Shown here: positions 1 through 6,459 of the stretch, piece after piece | Numbering within the stretch: position 1 is the first letter of the stretch | Layout: each line of letters starts with the position of its first letter | From: a virus | Reading direction: 5' to 3' (one strand) | Virus record (IMG/VR): IMGVR_UViG_3300030107_002493 | Coordinates: 3,838 to 32,007 of that record | Length of the DNA: 28,170 nucleotides | Translations under genes and position numbers: made by a program | The notes under the pieces: generated by a model | What the model saw: only the letters and a program-made list of their open reading frames with translations | Told to the model about the DNA's origin: nothing | Database searches by the model: none

Positions 1-136
1 ATAAGCATATATTTCTAATAAACAACTGTTATCACATCAGTTGCAAGCAACTGTAGCTTCTTAAAATCTTCAATTCCCAGAGAATTGAGTAAAATTAGAG
101 TGCCGATGCACAGTTTAGTTGTACCAACTAACCTAC

Positions 137-150
137 CCCAACATTGGGAC
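137..150. promoter_or_regulatory. Palindrome copy 1 (CCCAACATTGGGAC)
   Basis: First of six copies of a near-perfect palindrome confined to the first 3.6 kb. It lies 71 bp before the likely start of the first gene, just upstream of an AT-rich TTATATAT stretch. The right flank (GACAACTTA) resembles the flank of copies 3 and 4. A protein-binding operator or an RNA hairpin are both possible. Confidence 0.6.
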
Positions 151-160
151 AACTTATATA

Positions 161-212
161 TCCTCATTTTTATTTACACCATGAAATGGGTAAATGTAAA
201 TAAAAATGAGGA
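161..212. repeat. Long inverted repeat covering the first gene's ribosome-binding site
   Basis: Arms 161-178 and 195-212 are perfect 18-bp reverse complements around a 16-nt loop that itself contains CCAT/ATGG. The right arm contains the GAGG ribosome-binding sequence (208-211) of the gene starting at 221, so in RNA the stem would hide it. It could be a translation switch, a processing site or an AT-rich terminator-like hairpin. No U-tract follows, which argues against a simple intrinsic terminator. Confidence 0.75.
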
Positions 213-220
213 TTAATATA

Positions 221-898
221 ATGCCAAATCAAACAGCAACAGCTTTCGAAACTTTCAATGGTACTCTTGAAGAGAGAGGTTCTAACCTAGCGAAGCTAGA
301 GAAGAAGAGAATAACTAGCCTTGAAAAGGCTCACCAAGATGACACTAAACCATCTGGTTTAGCTTATCAGATTGGACAGTTACTCCATGAACTCACTCAA
401 GAGAGTGAGAGTGGCAGAATCTCTTCTCAGAGATTGTCTGAAACCTCTATGAATAGAGTTGCTTCTCAGAGAAGAAGCGAAGCTTTACAGTATTACAGAA
501 AGTTTGCTGAAATCCAACTATGGTTGGCATCTAGAAAAGCTACCAAGAGAAAGCACAAGATTGCTTTCACTTCAATCACAGCAATGCTGAAAGCATTCAA
601 AGATGAAACTCAACCAAAGGTTGATACAACAGATGATAAATCATCTGCTACACCATCAACTAAGGTTGATGAGAAGCCCAACGTTGGGACTAAAGATCAA
701 CCAAAGGTTGATACACAAGATGCTAAAGCATCTGATACTCAACCTAAGGTTGAGAAAGTGAGAGTTCCACAGAACTCTAAAGAGTTTGCTGACTACGTTC
801 ACAAACTAGTTATCAAATTTGGATTTGATAAAGATGAAGTTCTTGAAGCTATCTTTGATAGCTTTGAGAATAAAACAGCTAAAAAGAGAGTAGCTTAA
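221..898 (+). CDS. Hypothetical phage protein with a lysine/valine-rich repeat linker
   Basis: A 225-residue protein I do not recognise. I chose the ATG at 221 because GAGG lies 9 nt upstream; an in-frame ATG at 206 would include that site and lacks one of its own. The N-terminal half is basic and charged, probably helical. Residues around 130-180 form a low-complexity linker in which PKVD/TKVD/PKVE units recur, and a short helical domain rich in Asp, Glu and Phe precedes a basic tail (KKRVA). The DNA is remarkable: at least a dozen perfect hairpins with 6-9 bp arms tile the coding sequence, and each linker KV unit is encoded by a palindrome such as CAACCAAAGGTTG. A palindrome copy (677-690) is read in frame as PNVGT. 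Function unknown. Confidence 0.8.
   Translation: MPNQTATAFETFNGTLEERGSNLAKLEKKRITSLEKAHQDDTKPSGLAYQIGQLLHELTQESESGRISSQRLSETSMNRVASQRRSEALQYYRKFAEIQLWLASRKATKRKHKIAFTSITAMLKAFKDETQPKVDTTDDKSSATPSTKVDEKPNVGTKDQPKVDTQDAKASDTQPKVEKVRVPQNSKEFADYVHKLVIKFGFDKDEVLEAIFDSFENKTAKKRVA
677..690. repeat. Palindrome copy 2, inside a coding sequence (CCCAACGTTGGGAC)
   Basis: This copy has G at the centre (AACGTT), making its 12-bp core perfectly symmetrical, and is translated as Pro-Asn-Val-Gly-Thr. The coding copy at 3059 has the same base change and reading frame, whereas all four intergenic copies have AACATT. Confidence 0.7.
810..831. repeat. Example coding hairpin with 9-bp arms
   Basis: TTATCAAAT and ATTTGATAA are perfect reverse complements separated by TTGG, within the first gene. 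It is among the strongest of the intragenic hairpins; the next, 846-864, has 8-bp arms around TTT. Listed because such structures recur every 30-60 bases here. Confidence 0.8.
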
Positions 899-909
899 TT
901 GCTACTCTC
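886..909. terminator. Stop-codon hairpin at the end of the first gene
   Basis: GAGAGTAGC (886-894) pairs with GCTACTCTC (901-909) across a 6-nt loop holding the TAA stop codon. No T-run follows, so it is a weak candidate terminator; it could equally stabilise or punctuate the mRNA before the next gene at 930. Confidence 0.4.
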
Positions 910-911
910 AC

Positions 912-928
912 TTTAATCGGAGATTAAA
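912..928. promoter_or_regulatory. Hairpin presenting the ribosome-binding site in its loop
   Basis: TTTAATC (912-918) and GATTAAA (922-928) pair around GGA, so the CGGAG ribosome-binding sequence sits at the loop, directly before ATG 930. The same design occurs before the genes at 1240, 1508 and 1762. Confidence 0.65.
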
Positions 929-929
929 C

Positions 930-1148
930 ATGAAAACTTTAATAAACTTTACTTGCATGATGGCTTTAGCCATCTTTTATTTCTACATAGGACATTGCTT
1001 TCTTCAAGCAATGGAGTCAACCAAGATTGCAGATCTTGGTAATAATGTATATGACGTGGTTTGTCTTATGATATCCATAGTCTTTTGGCTATTCGGTTGC
1101 TTTACAATTGCCTTGACTTCTTACTTGAACCGAAATAGTTTACTCTAA
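930..1148 (+). CDS. Small two-helix membrane protein
   Basis: A 72-residue protein with two likely membrane segments (about residues 5-27 and 42-66) joined by a short polar loop, and a small polar tail (LNRNSLL). It has the size and shape of a small phage inner-membrane protein such as a holin or superinfection-exclusion protein, but nothing in the sequence decides between these and the lysis hydrolase is 7 kb away. The start is set by CGGAG in a hairpin loop 7 nt upstream. The coding DNA contains perfect hairpins at 959-974, 993-1013 and 1020-1040. The stop codon lies inside the left arm of the inverted repeat 1145-1192. Confidence 0.7.
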   Translation: MKTLINFTCMMALAIFYFYIGHCFLQAMESTKIADLGNNVYDVVCLMISIVFWLFGCFTIALTSYLNRNSLL

Positions 1149-1192
1149 TATATTTATTCACTCAGTATGAGTGAAGTAAATAAATATATTAG
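1145..1192. repeat. Long intergenic inverted repeat 2
   Basis: CTAATATATTTATT and its exact reverse complement form 14-bp outer arms; inside, CACTC and GAGTG pair around AGTAT, with a five-base asymmetry. It starts at the stop codon of the membrane-protein gene and ends 12 bp before palindrome copy 3. The inverted repeat at 3523-3570 has the same arrangement, so these may mark transcript boundaries. No T-tract beyond the stem on the plus strand. Confidence 0.75.
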
Positions 1193-1204
1193 TTAACTGA
1201 AACA

Positions 1205-1239
1205 GTCCCAACATTGGGACACAACTTAACGGAGTTAAA
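1205..1239. promoter_or_regulatory. Palindrome copy 3 plus ribosome-binding hairpin leader cassette
   Basis: GTCCCAACATTGGGAC (1205-1220) is followed by ACAACTTAACGGAGTTAAA, in which TTAAC and GTTAA pair around GGA and expose the ribosome-binding site just before ATG 1240. Almost the same 34-bp block recurs at 1727-1760 before another gene, so it looks like a mobile or duplicated 5' leader. Confidence 0.75.
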
Positions 1240-1473
1240 ATGATACATCCATTTAATAAATACCTCAAGTCCAATATTGATTGGAACATTGTTCATGAGA
1301 AAGTATTGAAAGGCTTTTCAATTACACTTGAAAAAGATGGTTCTTGGCTTATCTGTCTGAAGAAAAAATCAGATAAAGGTTATGATGCACCTATGAGAAA
1401 CTGTCATTCTCTGAATGATGCCATTGACTATGCTATTTATTTTGATTGGGAATTTAATATAAGAACAGATTAA
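1240..1473 (+). CDS. Hypothetical small phage protein
   Basis: A 77-residue soluble protein with an aromatic-rich N-terminus, a short strand-rich middle (SWLICLKKKS) and a helix with NDAIDYAIYFDW near the C-terminus. I do not recognise it. Start fixed by CGGAG in the hairpin leader six bases upstream. It is preceded by palindrome copy 3 and followed by another TTAACGGAGTTAA leader. Hairpins occur in its coding DNA too, for example TTTTCAA/TTGAAAA and the stop-codon palindrome CAGATTAATCTG. Confidence 0.7.
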   Translation: MIHPFNKYLKSNIDWNIVHEKVLKGFSITLEKDGSWLICLKKKSDKGYDAPMRNCHSLNDAIDYAIYFDWEFNIRTD

Positions 1474-1492
1474 TCTGCTCACTAACATAAAC

Positions 1493-1505
1493 TTAACGGA
1501 GTTAA
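1493..1505. promoter_or_regulatory. Ribosome-binding hairpin leader before the gene at 1508
   Basis: TTAACGGAGTTAA: five-base arms with GGA in the loop, identical to the elements at 1226-1238 and 1747-1759. Here the upstream GTCCCAAC palindrome is missing, so this hairpin can occur alone. Confidence 0.6.
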
Positions 1506-1507
1506 AC

Positions 1508-1723
1508 ATGAAAACTATGCATTGTATTGAAATGAAATCACCATTCACTGGCAACATGAACAGTATGTTCATGCTGTTTGATGTGGCTGATCTCAGGAAG
1601 TGGAAAGAGGGGCGTGGTCTTATTCAAGACTGCTTGCCTTATCTGTCAGCAGATGAGCGTGAGTTCCTCATGACAGGCATTATGCCTGAAGAGTGGGAAC
1701 AAGCCTTCAGTGATGAAGGATAA
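1508..1723 (+). CDS. Hypothetical small acidic phage protein
   Basis: A 71-residue protein with an acidic C-terminus containing SADEREFLMTGIMPEEWEQA. The pattern of short helices and the PEEW element resembles small phage proteins I have seen without known function; I cannot name it. CGGAG in a hairpin loop sets the start. Its DNA has CATGAAC/GTTCATG (1555-1573) and CAGGCAT/ATGCCTG (1674-1688) hairpins. Confidence 0.7.
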   Translation: MKTMHCIEMKSPFTGNMNSMFMLFDVADLRKWKEGRGLIQDCLPYLSADEREFLMTGIMPEEWEQAFSDEG

Positions 1724-1726
1724 CAG

Positions 1727-1760
1727 CCCCAACATTGGGACACAACTTAACGGAGTTAAA
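1727..1760. promoter_or_regulatory. Palindrome copy 4 plus ribosome-binding hairpin leader cassette
   Basis: CCCCAACATTGGGAC (1727-1741) followed by the ACAACTTAACGGAGTTAAA leader, matching the block at 1205-1239 except in the first bases. It separates the genes ending at 1723 and starting at 1762. An ATG inside the palindrome region is in frame with the downstream gene, but the ribosome-binding site favours ATG 1762. Confidence 0.7.
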
Positions 1761-1761
1761 T

Positions 1762-1980
1762 ATGAACTTGACATTATTAGAATTGACCAGACTATCAGAT
1801 GCTTTAGCATCAAAGCTTGACTACATGGTGCAGAATGGTGATGGTACAGATGTACAGCAGAACCTTGACTATGCCAAATACAAAGCCTTGTTTGTTAAAG
1901 TGAATGACGAATACTCTGATAGAATAGGTGGTACAAGGTATACAGCCTGTGATTCGGCATTATATTGGGAAAAGGAGTAG
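1762..1980 (+). CDS. Hypothetical small phage protein
   Basis: A 72-residue, probably helical protein (N-terminus MNLTLLELTRLSDALASK) with an acidic, tyrosine-containing C-terminal half. No family recognised. I chose ATG 1762 over an in-frame ATG at 1735 because the latter lies in the duplicated leader and would translate the operator-like palindrome. The next gene begins two bases after the stop codon. Confidence 0.7.
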   Translation: MNLTLLELTRLSDALASKLDYMVQNGDGTDVQQNLDYAKYKALFVKVNDEYSDRIGGTRYTACDSALYWEKE

Positions 1981-1981
1981 C

Positions 1982-2110
1982 ATGATGGAAGAAGTAGTAG
2001 TAGAAAGAAAATGTGAAAGCTGTGGTGACATGGCTGATGTGGAAACTGGGTTCATCTTTAAAGATGAATTGTATTGCAATGATTGTTGCCCTGAAGGGTA
2101 TGGAGAATAG
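1982..2110 (+). CDS. Small zinc-ribbon protein
   Basis: A 42-residue protein with two cysteine knuckles, CESC near residues 11-14 and CNDCC near residues 31-35, spaced as in a one-domain zinc ribbon. It probably binds one zinc ion and may contact nucleic acid or a protein partner; the function is unknown. Start chosen at ATG 1982 (a second ATG follows directly) because AAGGAG lies just upstream. The coding sequence contains the 18-bp perfect palindrome 2051-2068. Overlap-free but tightly spaced (3 bp) with the next gene. Confidence 0.7.
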   Translation: MMEEVVVERKCESCGDMADVETGFIFKDELYCNDCCPEGYGE

Positions 2111-2113
2111 CCA

Positions 2114-2791
2114 ATGAAAGTTAGATTTACAAAAACATCTGCCAACCGAAAGGTTGGTAAGATGACAGTGACAACTACAGAGAGACAATCCTGTCCTGAT
2201 GCCTGTCCATTCAAAGGGAATGGATGCTATGCCGATGGCTTCCCATTGGCAGGTGTTTGGAACAGAGTTCCAGATGAAGGGCATGATTGGGACACTCTGT
2301 GTGACAGAGTGGAACATGAAGCCACAGAGACTTGGAGACATAATCAGGCAGGAGATTGTCCAAAGGACAATGACAATCCAGAGTTGATTGATGCTCCAAA
2401 AATGTCCAGACTTGTTCGTGCCAATAAACGTGGGAACAAGAAAGGCATGACCTATACTCATTATGATATGGCTTTCAGCCATAATAGAGCTGTGGTCAGA
2501 GATGCCAACAGTAATGGTTTTACCATTAACTTGTCTGGCAATAACCTAAGTCATGCAGATGACTTGTTTGATCTTGGAATAGCACCAGTTACTACTGTGC
2601 TACCTATTGATCAGATGACTAACACGACTACTCCCAAAGGGAGAAAGGTTGTAGTCTGTCCTGCTGTCATCAAAGATGACGTGTCTTGTATGACTTGCAA
2701 GCTGTGTTGGAAACAGCGTGAAGCAATCGTGGGTTTCCCTGCTCACGGAAACAGTAAACAAAAAGCAAATGGAGTTGCAAATGAAAGTTAA
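2114..2791 (+). CDS. Cysteine-rich conserved phage protein of unknown function
   Basis: A 225-residue protein with an N-terminal motif CPDACPFKGNGCYAD (near residues 27-41), a middle with conserved-looking His/Asp/Asn, and a C-terminal cysteine cluster (CPAVI...CMTCKLCW). The CPxxCPF....CYA pattern occurs in a family of phage and plasmid proteins of unknown function and recalls the metal-binding motifs of DUF5131-like proteins; I cannot assign an activity. A metal or iron-sulphur site is a fair inference. The DNA carries hairpins at 2142-2157, 2468-2482, 2512-2528 and 2666-2680. It overlaps the next gene by 11 bp. Confidence 0.75.
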   Translation: MKVRFTKTSANRKVGKMTVTTTERQSCPDACPFKGNGCYADGFPLAGVWNRVPDEGHDWDTLCDRVEHEATETWRHNQAGDCPKDNDNPELIDAPKMSRLVRANKRGNKKGMTYTHYDMAFSHNRAVVRDANSNGFTINLSGNNLSHADDLFDLGIAPVTTVLPIDQMTNTTTPKGRKVVVCPAVIKDDVSCMTCKLCWKQREAIVGFPAHGNSKQKANGVANES

Positions 2792-3020
2792 AGATATCTT
2801 AAAAATATTAGAGGTAGTTGAGAAACTACCTGTTGATATGTATGACATAGTTGAGGAGAGTAATTATGACGGAGCATATTATTCTGATTCACAGAATAGA
2901 TATATTCCTGTCAGAGATATGGACGTAGTCCATCTATTGAGATCATTCAAGAAATTGAATGAGGATGCTTATATTAATAAGCAAACACCTACAAAGATAG
3001 GAGAAAAATACTATGGCTAG
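2781..3020 (+). CDS. Hypothetical small acidic phage protein
   Basis: A 79-residue acidic protein, helical at the N-terminus (MKVKDILKILEVVEKL), with a tyrosine-rich middle. Not recognised. Start at ATG 2781 follows GGAG with 6-nt spacing; a longer in-frame version from 2718 would run deep into the preceding gene. Contains the perfect hairpin 2812-2831 (8-bp arms, GAGA loop, a stable-tetraloop-like sequence). Confidence 0.65.
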   Translation: MKVKDILKILEVVEKLPVDMYDIVEESNYDGAYYSDSQNRYIPVRDMDVVHLLRSFKKLNEDAYINKQTPTKIGEKYYG

Positions 3021-3156
3021 TAATAGTAATTTTGAAAAAATTAAAAAGAAACCAGATAGTCCCAACGTTGGGACAGATAGAAGAGATAAGCACTCTCTCT
3101 TGAGAGAGAGAAGGCTTGTCCGTAAACTTAGACTACGTCAGAAGGGAGTAGCTTAA
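3013..3156 (+). CDS. Small basic protein (47 residues)
   Basis: A short open frame, strongly basic in its second half (RERRLVRKLRLRQKG), with AGGAG about 10 nt upstream. It overlaps the preceding gene by 8 bp and shares TAATG with the next one, the translational-coupling pattern of its neighbours, so it is likely real. It contains palindrome copy 5, read in frame as PNVGT, exactly as in the first gene, and a CTCTCTC/GAGAGAG hairpin (3093-3108). A basic nucleic-acid-binding peptide is possible; function unknown. Confidence 0.6.
   Translation: MASNSNFEKIKKKPDSPNVGTDRRDKHSLLRERRLVRKLRLRQKGVA
3059..3074. repeat. Palindrome copy 5, inside a coding sequence (GTCCCAACGTTGGGAC)
   Basis: A fully perfect 16-bp palindrome, with the AACGTT centre seen only in the two coding copies. 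Confidence 0.75.
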
Positions 3157-3530
3157 TGGATATAAATGCAAGAGCATATTGGAACTTACACAAAGGTCAG
3201 TGGTCTATCCAAGATAGACAGACTGGCTTGGTTGTTGGCAGACAGCCAGAGTTGTTCCTATTGGTGGGCAGTTTCAATGTCCGTCAAGGTGGCAGACAAC
3301 GTGTGCTTCTCGAAGGGAAGAAGAACGTCCATGCATTTGCAGAGGGATGGTATCCAGAAGTCTGGATCAGTCCCAAGTTCTATCATGATGAGGGTAGGTC
3401 TGTGACCTACAATCCTTACAAGAACGATACCTTTGTCTATGTAGACAATGGTGAACCAGTTGGCGAGGTAGGTTCTATCTGGCTGACAACTACACCTGAA
3501 GGCAAACCTTCAGTTAAAGTATACAGTTAA
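3156..3530 (+). CDS. Hypothetical phage protein
   Basis: A 124-residue, probably strand-rich protein with many Gly, Val, Trp and Tyr residues (WNLHKGQWSI at the N-terminus, WYPEVWISP in the middle). Not recognised. The start overlaps the stop of the small basic gene (TAATG) with GAAGGGAG upstream. Coding hairpins at 3394-3410, 3433-3448 and 3496-3513. Its stop codon is inside the long inverted repeat 3523-3570. Confidence 0.7.
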   Translation: MDINARAYWNLHKGQWSIQDRQTGLVVGRQPELFLLVGSFNVRQGGRQRVLLEGKKNVHAFAEGWYPEVWISPKFYHDEGRSVTYNPYKNDTFVYVDNGEPVGEVGSIWLTTTPEGKPSVKVYS

Positions 3531-3570
3531 TATAATACTTGAAATGAATATGAAAGTATTATATAACTGT
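3523..3570. repeat. Long intergenic inverted repeat 3
   Basis: ACAGTT-A-ATATAATACTT pairs with AAGTATTATAT-AACTGT, a 17-bp stem with a single bulged A and a 13-nt loop. Like 1145-1192 it begins at a stop codon and is followed about 16 bp later by a GTCCCAACATTGGGAC palindrome. Possible transcript end or RNA processing signal; there is no T-tract. Confidence 0.75.
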
Positions 3571-3586
3571 AATACATAAACCAACA

Positions 3587-3602
3587 GTCCCAACATTGGG
3601 AC
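3587..3602. promoter_or_regulatory. Palindrome copy 6 (GTCCCAACATTGGGAC)
   Basis: Intergenic copy 24 bp before the start of the gene at 3626. After it the leader differs from copies 3 and 4: an AAAGGAG ribosome-binding site without the TTAAC hairpin. This is the last copy seen in the window. Confidence 0.65.
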
Positions 3603-3625
3603 ACTAACATGAAAGGAGCATTCAT

Positions 3626-3940
3626 ATGCTTACATTTAACTTTGACGATCTTCCAAAGGGAGAAAAAATCTCTGGTGGTTTTACTGCCGTAAAATTAATT
3701 GCTACAGCTATCAAGCTAAAGCTACAGGGATACAAGCCTGTAATCTACAGGAATGATAATGTCCAAGAAACTGGATGGTTTATCCGTAAGGGTAAAGGTG
3801 GCAAGTCTGGTGAACCTTTGGTTCGCTTGAACTTTGGTAGCACCTACTCTTCCTTCCATGCCTATGATAGGAAGGGCAAGCGAAGAGTGGCAAGCTATGT
3901 GCCTATCAAGTCCTTCTTGATACAGAAGAAGGTAGCCTAA
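3626..3940 (+). CDS. Hypothetical basic phage protein
   Basis: A 104-residue basic protein (many Lys, Arg and Gly; FIRKGKGGKSGEP in the middle), ending KKVA. The basic, glycine-containing surface suggests nucleic-acid binding, but this is inference. AAAGGAG lies 9 nt before ATG. The hairpin 3904-3922 has 7-bp arms. Followed closely by the next gene. Confidence 0.7.
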   Translation: MLTFNFDDLPKGEKISGGFTAVKLIATAIKLKLQGYKPVIYRNDNVQETGWFIRKGKGGKSGEPLVRLNFGSTYSSFHAYDRKGKRRVASYVPIKSFLIQKKVA

Positions 3941-3942
3941 CC

Positions 3943-4182
3943 ATGATGCACTATGAGATATTTATCTCAGTGGATGGGCAACGAGGTGTGGTGAGAGTTG
4001 GTAGCTCTCATCCCCTCGTGAAGGGTACACCTTCTGCTATTGAGTATGCCTTGCATCTTACAGAGATGTGCTATCCAGACGCAATAGTTGAGTTTGACTT
4101 CATCAAAGAGTACACTCTTGACGATGAACCAGACGTAGGCTATGTCTATGAAGCACCTACACCAGTACAAACATATCATTAG
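3943..4182 (+). CDS. Hypothetical small acidic phage protein
   Basis: A 79-residue acidic protein with N-terminal strand-like MHYEIFISVDGQRGVVRV and an Asp/Glu-rich C-terminal half. Two adjacent ATGs (3943 and 3946) are possible starts. Not recognised. The first codons contain a TGAGATA/TATCTCA hairpin (3954-3969). It lies in the same run of small early-type genes. Confidence 0.65.
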   Translation: MMHYEIFISVDGQRGVVRVGSSHPLVKGTPSAIEYALHLTEMCYPDAIVEFDFIKEYTLDDEPDVGYVYEAPTPVQTYH

Positions 4183-4192
4183 GAGGTAGCCA

Positions 4193-4381
4193 ATGGCTAA
4201 AACTATAAACAAAAAACCTTTACCACAAAGACCACGCAATCTGCTTCATGCAGAGATGGTGACGCAAGGTATCTTGAAATCTAAAGTTATAGGTGACAAG
4301 AGATCTAAGGTATTGGAGAACAGAGCCAAGAAAAGGGCAATAGAGTTTAAGAAAATGAACAAGGAAAATTATGATGATTAA
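4193..4381 (+). CDS. Small basic hypothetical protein
   Basis: A 62-residue, lysine- and arginine-rich protein, mostly helical by composition (RSKVLENRAKKRAIEFKKM), preceded by a strong AGGAGG site. Likely a small nucleic-acid- or protein-binding peptide; no family recognised. Its 3' end overlaps the next short gene by 11 bp. Confidence 0.65.
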   Translation: MAKTINKKPLPQRPRNLLHAEMVTQGILKSKVIGDKRSKVLENRAKKRAIEFKKMNKENYDD

Positions 4382-5720: not shown

Positions 5721-6037
5721 GTACACAAATGAGTAAAATACTTGGGCATGAACCTACTAAATTATCGGAACATGTACCAACAAAAGTAACACTTGATAAA
5801 ATCACATGGCTGTCCCTGTATGACAGGCTGTATGATACAATCAGACATGCCAGTAGATTGAGAGATATACAGGATCTAAAGTTAAGAGATACATTCAAGG
5901 ATGATGATGATGTAAGGGACGAAGTCCTGAACATAATGAACTTTTATTTTGACAGAGGTTTTCCTGTCGGATTAACAAATGAAACAGAGATAACAATACA
6001 CGATCATAAGGAGATAAATAATGACACTATCAGATAA
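5717..6037 (+). CDS. Hypothetical phage protein
   Basis: A 106-residue, charged, probably helical protein with an Asp-rich stretch (FKDDDDVRDEV near residues 60-70) and no recognisable domain. Its ATG lies inside the stop region of the methyltransferase (ATGA overlap) after AGAAGGAG, suggesting coupled translation. Could be a partner of the methyltransferase, but only position hints at this. Confidence 0.65.
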   Translation: MSTQMSKILGHEPTKLSEHVPTKVTLDKITWLSLYDRLYDTIRHASRLRDIQDLKLRDTFKDDDDVRDEVLNIMNFYFDRGFPVGLTNETEITIHDHKEINNDTIR

Positions 6038-6242
6038 ACCATTACAATTTACAGGCAGTATAAGACGTATACAGTATGCAGTAGTCTTTGAGCCTTTTGA
6101 AACAGATGGCTTGGAGTATGTGAAGCAAGGGTGTGGTGCTATGTGGGATGACAAGAGTCCTATAAAAGTATTTGATACTTTTGAAGAAGCAAAGAAGGAA
6201 GCAGACAAGTGGAACACAGGACAGGTGGTGCAGTATGAATGA
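6021..6242 (+). CDS. Hypothetical small phage protein
   Basis: A 73-residue protein, start set by AAGGAG 8 nt upstream, overlapping the previous gene by 17 bp. The C-terminal half has an acidic helix (FDTFEEAKKEADKW) typical of small phage proteins with a strand-helix fold. A perfect AAAAGTAT/ATACTTTT hairpin is at 6164-6182. Not recognised. Confidence 0.65.
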   Translation: MTLSDKPLQFTGSIRRIQYAVVFEPFETDGLEYVKQGCGAMWDDKSPIKVFDTFEEAKKEADKWNTGQVVQYE

Positions 6243-6459
6243 TGATGATGTAAAACAGCAAGCCTTGGAACAGGCACAACAAGCCTATGGATTATTCATA
6301 TGGTTTGTGAAGTGGTTCAGCTACATTATGATAACATTGATTGTTATAATGTTTATGAACAACTGGTTTGATGATGGCACAGGCAGTATGTTTATGCCAG
6401 ATGAAATATACGAAGATCAATATGACCCACAAGGTCTTAACAAAAAGAAAGGAATATAA
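6235..6459 (+). CDS. Small single-pass membrane protein
   Basis: A 74-residue protein with a polar, Gln-rich N-terminus, one long hydrophobic segment (about residues 18-40, FIWFVKWFSYIMITLIVIMF) and an acidic C-terminal tail. Predicted inner-membrane topology; roles such as holin, anti-holin or superinfection exclusion are possible but not shown. The start is ATG 6235, overlapping the previous gene by 8 bp; a longer frame from 6172 lies inside that gene. Confidence 0.65.
   Translation: MNDDDVKQQALEQAQQAYGLFIWFVKWFSYIMITLIVIMFMNNWFDDGTGSMFMPDEIYEDQYDPQGLNKKKGI

Follow-up and report, generated by a model that had tools for sequence, protein, structure and literature searches.

A giant hairpin conserved in place and predicted fold before the first early gene of HMO-2011-type marine phages

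We know of no account of how phages of the HMO-2011 type turn on their first genes. The locus described here raises that question directly: what is the role of a long stem that stands immediately before the first gene and contains its Shine-Dalgarno (SD) sequence? The stretch of DNA analysed (hereafter the window, 28,170 nucleotides) spans nt 3838-32007 of a virus record 32,007 bases long, its first base lying just past a 10-N gap. It encodes a DNA polymerase with 66% identity to the polymerase of Puniceispirillum phage HMO-2011 and, judged from its sequence, is part of a marine phage of that type; by eye, its ORFs agree with the annotated order integrase, primase, helicase, polymerase of HMO-2011 and CRP-345. 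No tRNA was found in the window, and a search of Rfam at gathering score gave 0 matches in the window and 0 in four other loci. PMC9038755 (in part) describes phages of the HMO-2011 type as dominant in the sea, where they are broadly distributed; its main text contains no words for hairpins, stem-loops, palindromes, promoters or terminators. Our literature search found no description of a giant leader hairpin, which does not prove that the element is unpublished.

The stem before gene 1 and its transcription

The following features were recognised at the beginning of the window:

24..43, + strand, leader motif AACTGTTATNNNATCAGTTG, which can form a 6-bp hairpin; one base longer, it matched at least 120 viral stretches
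160..213, + strand, giant leader hairpin of gene 1, with perfect arms 160-178 and 195-213 (19 bp) and a 16-nt loop
208..211, + strand, Shine-Dalgarno GAGG, paired with CCTC 162-165 (from sequence and fold)
221..898, + strand, gene 1 (225 aa, uncharacterised family), an ORF in whose predicted structure helical parts flank a low-confidence linker

The first-pass annotation had reported an 18-bp stem (161-178/195-212) enclosing the GAGG ahead of ATG 221. Both statements hold, the perfect stem being one pair longer than described; the GAGG is separated from ATG 221 by 9 nt. An imperfect extension of the stem (155-178 with 195-218) was 92% complementary, and the loop contained a short CCAT/ATGG hairpin. 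The upstream hairpins that had been proposed to take part in an alternative fold were also found, at 38-53, 70-88, 115-131 and 135-150. The predicted fold of nt 100-260 had an energy of -42.7 kcal/mol, compared with -22.8 ± 3.6 for shuffled sequences (z = -5.6; 0 out of 200 shuffles as good). Perfect stems of at least 10 bp (loop 3-20) numbered three in the window, versus 0-2 in whole-window dinucleotide shuffles (mean 1.0; n = 10).

Variant stem sequences were observed in three relatives (L005, L018 and L142). Another in-frame ATG, at position 206, sits within the window stem; because it is missing from these three relatives, whose stem sequence differs, ATG 221 is the likely start of gene 1.

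Features of an intrinsic terminator were not found at the window stem, which is AT-rich, is followed by no T run past 213 and gave no terminator-like match. In the 58 leaders measured, a promoter-like block, GTGGTTAACA ... ATCTGTGT, preceded the leader motif by 187-207 nt, and a looser pattern, GTGGTTAAC...ATCTGTGT, occurred within 450 nt upstream of the motif in 73 out of 83 leaders. By our reading, the block resembles a -35/-10 pair (TTAACA, 18 nt, TGTATT). In the record to which the window belongs (L003), it is present as GTGGTTAACA...ATCTGTGTATTT at 3704-3738, i.e., 100-134 bases before the window start and beyond the N gap. If this block is the early promoter, the stem would be in the RNA. 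Since the + strand of the window gave no sigma-70-like site ahead of position 1125 and the promoter-like block lies upstream, the window stem is probably part of the transcript.

The giant hairpin across relatives

Two stem-bearing relatives emerged from an initial protein scan, one identical to the window across the stem (L004) and one changed (L005). A scan of viral contigs with the leader motif AACTGTTATNNNATCAGTTGC matched at least 120 stretches; the motif matches listed, together with the loci from the earlier scan, made up 131 oriented loci. A near-duplicate and length filter left 93 non-redundant loci, 79 of which had an assigned gene-1 ORF, with a start, past the leader motif. We used 74 of these, L095, L099, L134, L138 and L154 being excluded as non-homologous or of uncertain start; L075 was further excluded from the codon-shuffle, strand-preference and loop-inversion analyses. 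Gene-1 starts were assigned from a score for SD and ATG, a rule that is wrong in some cases (HMO-2011, L020). For each locus we took the best single hairpin in the interval from -130 to +22 relative to the start of gene 1 and called it giant if its energy was -24 kcal/mol or lower.

A giant hairpin, often of 30-50 bp, was found at gene 1 in 61 out of the 74 loci (window included), versus 156 out of 740 random windows (21%), a comparison in which related loci are not independent and the control windows come from the same loci, structured regions included. The median energy of the best hairpin was -32.8 kcal/mol in the 74 loci and -17.1 kcal/mol in the random windows, with a shuffle mean of -12.9 kcal/mol. 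In the 61 loci, the last paired base of the hairpin lay between -13 and +19 nt from the gene-1 start codon. The folds had up to 50 pairs, with bulges and mismatches that recurred, by eye, at like places. Cultured phages CRP-1 and CRP-345 carry the giant hairpin. By the rule used, 13 of the 74 loci fell short of the -24 kcal/mol threshold. In L020, a stem is visible in the sequence though the rule did not detect it, and HMO-2011 has a long hairpin ahead of its annotated start, missed by the automatic start choice. As far as sequence can tell, the giant hairpin is conserved in place and folding, with differing sequence, before the first early gene, which suggests that it is a control or processing site of the phage's first message.

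Pairing of the SD varied among the 61 giant hairpins: it reached at least 75% in 28, 25-75% in 22 and less in 10, and in one the SD was unrecognised. In L016, for example, the main stem stops ahead of AAGGAGG, and 3 out of 7 of its bases are paired in the fold. The earlier proposal that the stem would hide the ribosome-binding site agrees with the predicted fold of the window, where the SD is fully paired, and in part with that of the relatives (28 out of 61 mostly paired); the giant hairpin before gene 1 is more constant across relatives than burial of the SD. Opening by temperature, which had been suggested as one way to release translation, is unlikely given predicted energies of -24 to -46 kcal/mol. 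Going by predicted energy alone (a median of -32.8 kcal/mol at 37 °C), the stems did not show the marginal stability of an RNA thermometer, and hairpins modelled to be this stable are unsuited to such a function.

To describe pairing within the stems, we aligned the arms of 38 non-duplicate stems with at least 18 Watson-Crick pairs, taken from the 79 loci, with no mismatch type favoured. Among the 1329 aligned positions, 1237 were Watson-Crick, 7 were G-U, 17 were A-C and 68 were other combinations. G-U accounted for 54 out of 2414 MFE pairs of the giant stems, versus 5 out of 45 and 5 out of 39 pairs in the whole folds of the T7 0.3 and lambda N leaders, respectively.

A stem alignment (MAFFT) was built from 36 hand-picked hairpin-bearing loci (41 before duplicate removal). 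From these 36 sequences, RNAalifold retained 7 apical pairs, each with two-sided changes and none with one-sided changes, and 11 cells were broken; it was limited to these pairs because bulges and lengths vary. Within the clade of the window (7 sequences, 5 distinct rows), two-sided changes were present at 5 of the 19 pairs and one-sided changes at none. The covariation score of this clade (0.253) exceeded that of 500 out of 500 shuffles, and its count of pairs with two-sided changes was matched by 63 out of 500. Pairing was kept in 80.6% of cells, probably an underestimate because a length difference of one base puts the alignment out of register; shuffles gave 73.7%.

We infer that the near-absence of G-U is best accounted for by template switching during DNA replication, which would keep the arms perfect, and not by G-U being harmful to function. 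Template switching has been proposed to create and maintain RNA hairpins, in rRNA and microRNA genes (PMC8794818, in part), and has been reported for coding inverted repeats of yeast (PMC8604942, in part).

Hairpins and palindromes of the early region

Beyond the leader, three further structured features were recognised:

1..4200, + strand, hairpin-dense early region (perfect stems of at least 6 bp, loop 3-8)
1145..1192, + strand, second long AT-rich hairpin, intergenic, whose loop ends in TGA
3530..3564, + strand, third long AT-rich hairpin, likewise intergenic, past the L5-gp82-like gene, with the TGA-ended loop GAAATGAATATGA

In the window, perfect stems of at least 6 bp (loop 3-8) numbered 22, 11, 16 and 19 in the successive kilobases of the first 4 kb and 0-6 per kb afterwards. 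In the complete genomes of CRP-1 and HMO-2011, too, hairpins were densest in the leader and early region: CRP-1 had 14, 5, 8 and 6 in its first four kb, HMO-2011 had 11 at kb 53, 12 at kb 54 and 9 at kb 0, and both had 0-6 per kb elsewhere. By eye, the early genes around the hairpins vary between relatives. Mycobacteriophage L5 gene 82 has a homologue in the window at 3156-3530 (Pfam PF25735, E 4.7e-28). Small GGA-loop hairpins at 912-928 and 1226-1238 (TTTAATCggaGATTAAA and TTAACggaGTTAA, respectively) hold the SDs of later early genes. In L004, the 1145-1192 hairpin of the window is present twice, at approximately 5779-5826 and 6228-6275, before different genes, the two copies differing solely in their outermost pair, which is swapped (C-G, G-C).

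Many loops of the long hairpins shared a terminal motif. Among gene-1 hairpin loops of 9-16 nt, TGA stood immediately before the 3' arm in 49 out of 106 loops (49 out of 74 loci), and long-stem loops in the 6 kb downstream were TGA-ended in 66 out of 81 cases (57 out of 74 loci). When the other strand was read, the commonest loop triplets were AGT/AGG at gene 1 and TTC/ATC downstream. GTGA was invariant in the aligned stems (36 out of 36); the gene-1 loop of the window itself has no TGA cap. The fixed strand of the motif suggests that it would be read as a single strand, most simply as RNA.

Hairpins were also abundant within coding sequence. In the window, gene 1 contained 16 coding hairpins versus 3.3 in synonymous-codon shuffles, and the gene at 2114-2791 contained 10 versus 1.3; no excess was found in the genes at 1508-1723 (z = 1.6) and 1762-1980 (z = -0.8). 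This per-gene test skipped four genes whose coordinates gave a length not divisible by three, and 3014-3154 was discarded because of a wrong frame. The gene at 2114-2791 is a DUF7227 gene, and its coding hairpins are many in the clade of the window and few in L019-L021, at 87-90% protein identity. Family-wide, gene 1 had 636 coding hairpins versus 113 expected, with z > 2 in 61 out of 72 loci; control ORFs had 58 versus 32 expected, with z > 2 in 7 out of 40. The use of hairpin-rich and hairpin-poor clades as a natural experiment was dropped, the poor loci (L019-L021, L058) retaining the long stem and the palindromes.

The linker of the gene-1 protein (residues 137-179) is coded largely by perfect palindromes, both arms of which change between relatives, replacing amino acids. 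Gene 1 was aligned for 56 out of 63 sequences (62 kept, plus the window). Over 68 ordered locus pairs (70-97% protein identity; each comparison counted both ways), its paired positions showed 342 double changes versus about 23 expected, of which 225 retained a Watson-Crick pair; the amino acid was altered by 292 out of the 450 positions in these pair-keeping changes. Single changes to G-U and to A-C were about equal (141 and 156, respectively). No strand preference was found for the coding hairpins of gene 1 (z+ -1.69, z- -1.76; 190 windows from 73 loci, at most 190 windows being drawn per class), and the difference in folding between its plus and minus strands was 0.07 ± 0.09, versus a plus bias of -0.37 ± 0.11 in the far coding control. 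Compared with codon shuffles, gene-1 stems with one G-U numbered 44 versus 38.4, those with one A-C 76 versus 42.5, and those with another mismatch 228 versus 128. Plus-strand RNA structure was rejected as the driver of the coding hairpins, with G-U stems hardly enriched and the two strands of gene 1 folding alike. In the window and its near relatives, a set of early genes wider than gene 1 displayed a G-U excess and stronger plus-strand folding, and for early genes other than gene 1 some room is left for a plus-strand effect. Gene 1 was also considered as a known regulator and gave no convincing match in Pfam, PHROG, PDB sequences or PDB folds; its weak Pfam matches were under the curated cut-off or scattered.

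A 16-bp palindrome (at most two mismatches) was present in six copies in the window, two of them within coding sequence (strand not applicable):

135..150, leader palindrome copy, type CCCAANNTTGGG, lineage-specific
675..690, palindrome copy within gene 1, coding PNVG
1205..1220, palindrome copy, followed by ACAACTTAACGGAGTTAAA and ATG 1240
1726..1741, palindrome copy ahead of ATG 1762
3059..3074, palindrome copy in a small basic ORF (about 3013-3156)
3587..3602, palindrome copy ahead of the gene at 3626

Relatives carry other palindromes at comparable places. At least three copies of one of seven palindrome types, which were defined after inspecting the loci, were found in the early 5.5 kb of 53 out of 53 testable loci and in 0 out of 50 late-side stretches. 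These 53 loci held 291 copies, with a leader copy in 47 and a gene-1 copy in 46; the latter codes PNVG, SNVG, SDVG or PDVG in the proteins inspected. The last copy lay at a median of 3.1 kb and a maximum of 4.8 kb from the leader motif, 5.5 kb being searched. The centres of the four free-centre types were TG (145), CG (52), CA (43), GG (9) and CC (3), in both orientations. The repeated palindrome looks like a set of operator- or stoperator-like DNA sites, or a set of small RNA hairpins.

Candidate roles of the hairpin and comparison with known systems

The leaders of lambda N and T7 0.3 are processed by RNase III, and the expression of N is controlled in this way; when folded, both leaders gave stable hairpins near the gene start. 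By analogy, the leader hairpin of the phages described here may gate expression of the first gene and be resolved by processing, a reading to which we assign a probability of about 0.42. The hairpin would act in the nascent early transcript: gene 1 would be translated weakly or not at all before the hairpin is resolved, for which a nuclease specific for double strands, such as host RNase III, is the likeliest agent. Cleavage in the hairpin would, in addition, determine the 5' end of the early message, and the TGA-capped long hairpins that separate later early genes would be processed in their turn. In favour of this reading are the place of the giant hairpin in 61 out of 74 loci, stems that stay paired as their sequence changes, the strand-fixed loop motif and the promoter-like block upstream. 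Against it, G-U pairs are rarer than RNA-level selection would lead one to expect, the gene-1 coding hairpins show neither strand preference nor G-U enrichment, 13 of the 74 loci miss an energy threshold that 21% of control windows reach, and the gene-1 loop of the window has no TGA cap.

Other explanations share part of this evidence. A pure SD-masking switch, in which the stem would keep gene 1 untranslated for as long as it is not opened by temperature, a small molecule, a protein or refolding with the upstream hairpins, and in which cleavage would be unnecessary, agrees with the fully paired SD of the window and the mostly paired SD of 28 out of 61 giant hairpins, as well as with L005, L018 and L142, whose SD is AGGAG, not GAGG, and whose partner strand has co-changed. 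We nevertheless consider it unlikely: the SD is free or merely partly paired in 32 out of 61 hairpins, and stems of 30-50 bp would far exceed the length that masking requires. It is also doubtful that the element acts as DNA, with single-stranded hairpins or cruciforms serving replication start, DNA entry or attC-like cassette exchange and adjacency to gene 1 being secondary. The foot of the hairpin lies no farther than about 20 nt from the start codon and the apical motif is strand-fixed, neither of which favours a DNA-level element; such an element would fit the almost strictly Watson-Crick pairing, coding hairpins without strand preference and the different early genes found, by eye, around the hairpins of relatives. 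Hairpins of CRP-1 and HMO-2011 cluster, moreover, near the cumulative GC-skew minimum, but this minimum coincides with a switch in gene direction and therefore locates no origin.

That the hairpins have no job at all, template switching having made and perfected palindromes in a region that is often single-stranded while it replicates, appears to us quite improbable. The mechanism is documented (PMC8794818 and PMC8604942, both in part), and the excess of double changes in gene 1, most of them pair-keeping and many amino-acid-altering, agrees with it. Among 229 loops differing at two or more sites, 14 were exact inversions, versus 9 reversed and 3 complemented controls, an excess that is weak. 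A blind process should also erase the like-placed bulges and mismatches (by eye), the GTGA present in 36 out of 36 stems and the place kept in 61 out of 74 loci. A wider reading, tentative and on balance not expected, is that of one system with immunity-like types of specificity, in which a dedicated phage factor, perhaps the gene-1 protein, would read the early DNA or its transcript in the form of hairpins. Its parts would be the giant, near-wobble-free hairpin, the TGA-capped long hairpins, the lineage palindrome and a gene-1 protein that bends to hairpins; if this is true, the whole early region of HMO-2011-type phages would be under palindrome-level selection. RNA-end mapping in cultured hosts could be aimed precisely at a hairpin conserved in place and fold, though not in sequence, and wobble-poor stems together with a hairpin-packed gene 1 offer a test of template switching versus DNA- or RNA-level selection in shaping coding sequence.

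Cluster A mycobacteriophage stoperators are asymmetric 13-bp sites, more than 20 in number, whose orientation is tied to transcription (PMC9283540, in part). Like them, the repeated palindrome is a short site in many copies, also present in short intergenic spaces; unlike them, the sites of this phage group are 11-17-bp palindromes of the early region, some of them coding, and stoperator-type asymmetry with a transcription-fixed orientation was not observed. The SD within the window stem recalls hairpins that sequester ribosome-binding sites, such as that of mobE of phage Aeh1 (listed among the references of PMC3014915), from which the group differs in that SD burial varies among relatives. 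Hairpins maintained by template switching (PMC8794818, in part) resemble those found here in their perfect stems and in compensatory changes attributable to a single event; however, they were described in rRNA and microRNA genes, whereas the hairpins of this phage group are densely packed in one region.

As for a leader hairpin that gates gene 1 and is resolved by processing, the lambda N leader likewise has a recognition element (annotated nutL in lambda) followed by a hairpin at the start of an early gene, whereas the stems of the phage group are longer, AU-rich, nearly wobble-free and of a sequence that differs between lineages; gene 1 gave no match to known N. The T7 folds examined contained 5-8 G-U pairs, in contrast to the nearly wobble-free stems found here, but the arrangement is alike: the early RNase III sites of T7 (R0.3 and others) are hairpins before and between early genes, with one just before 0.3.
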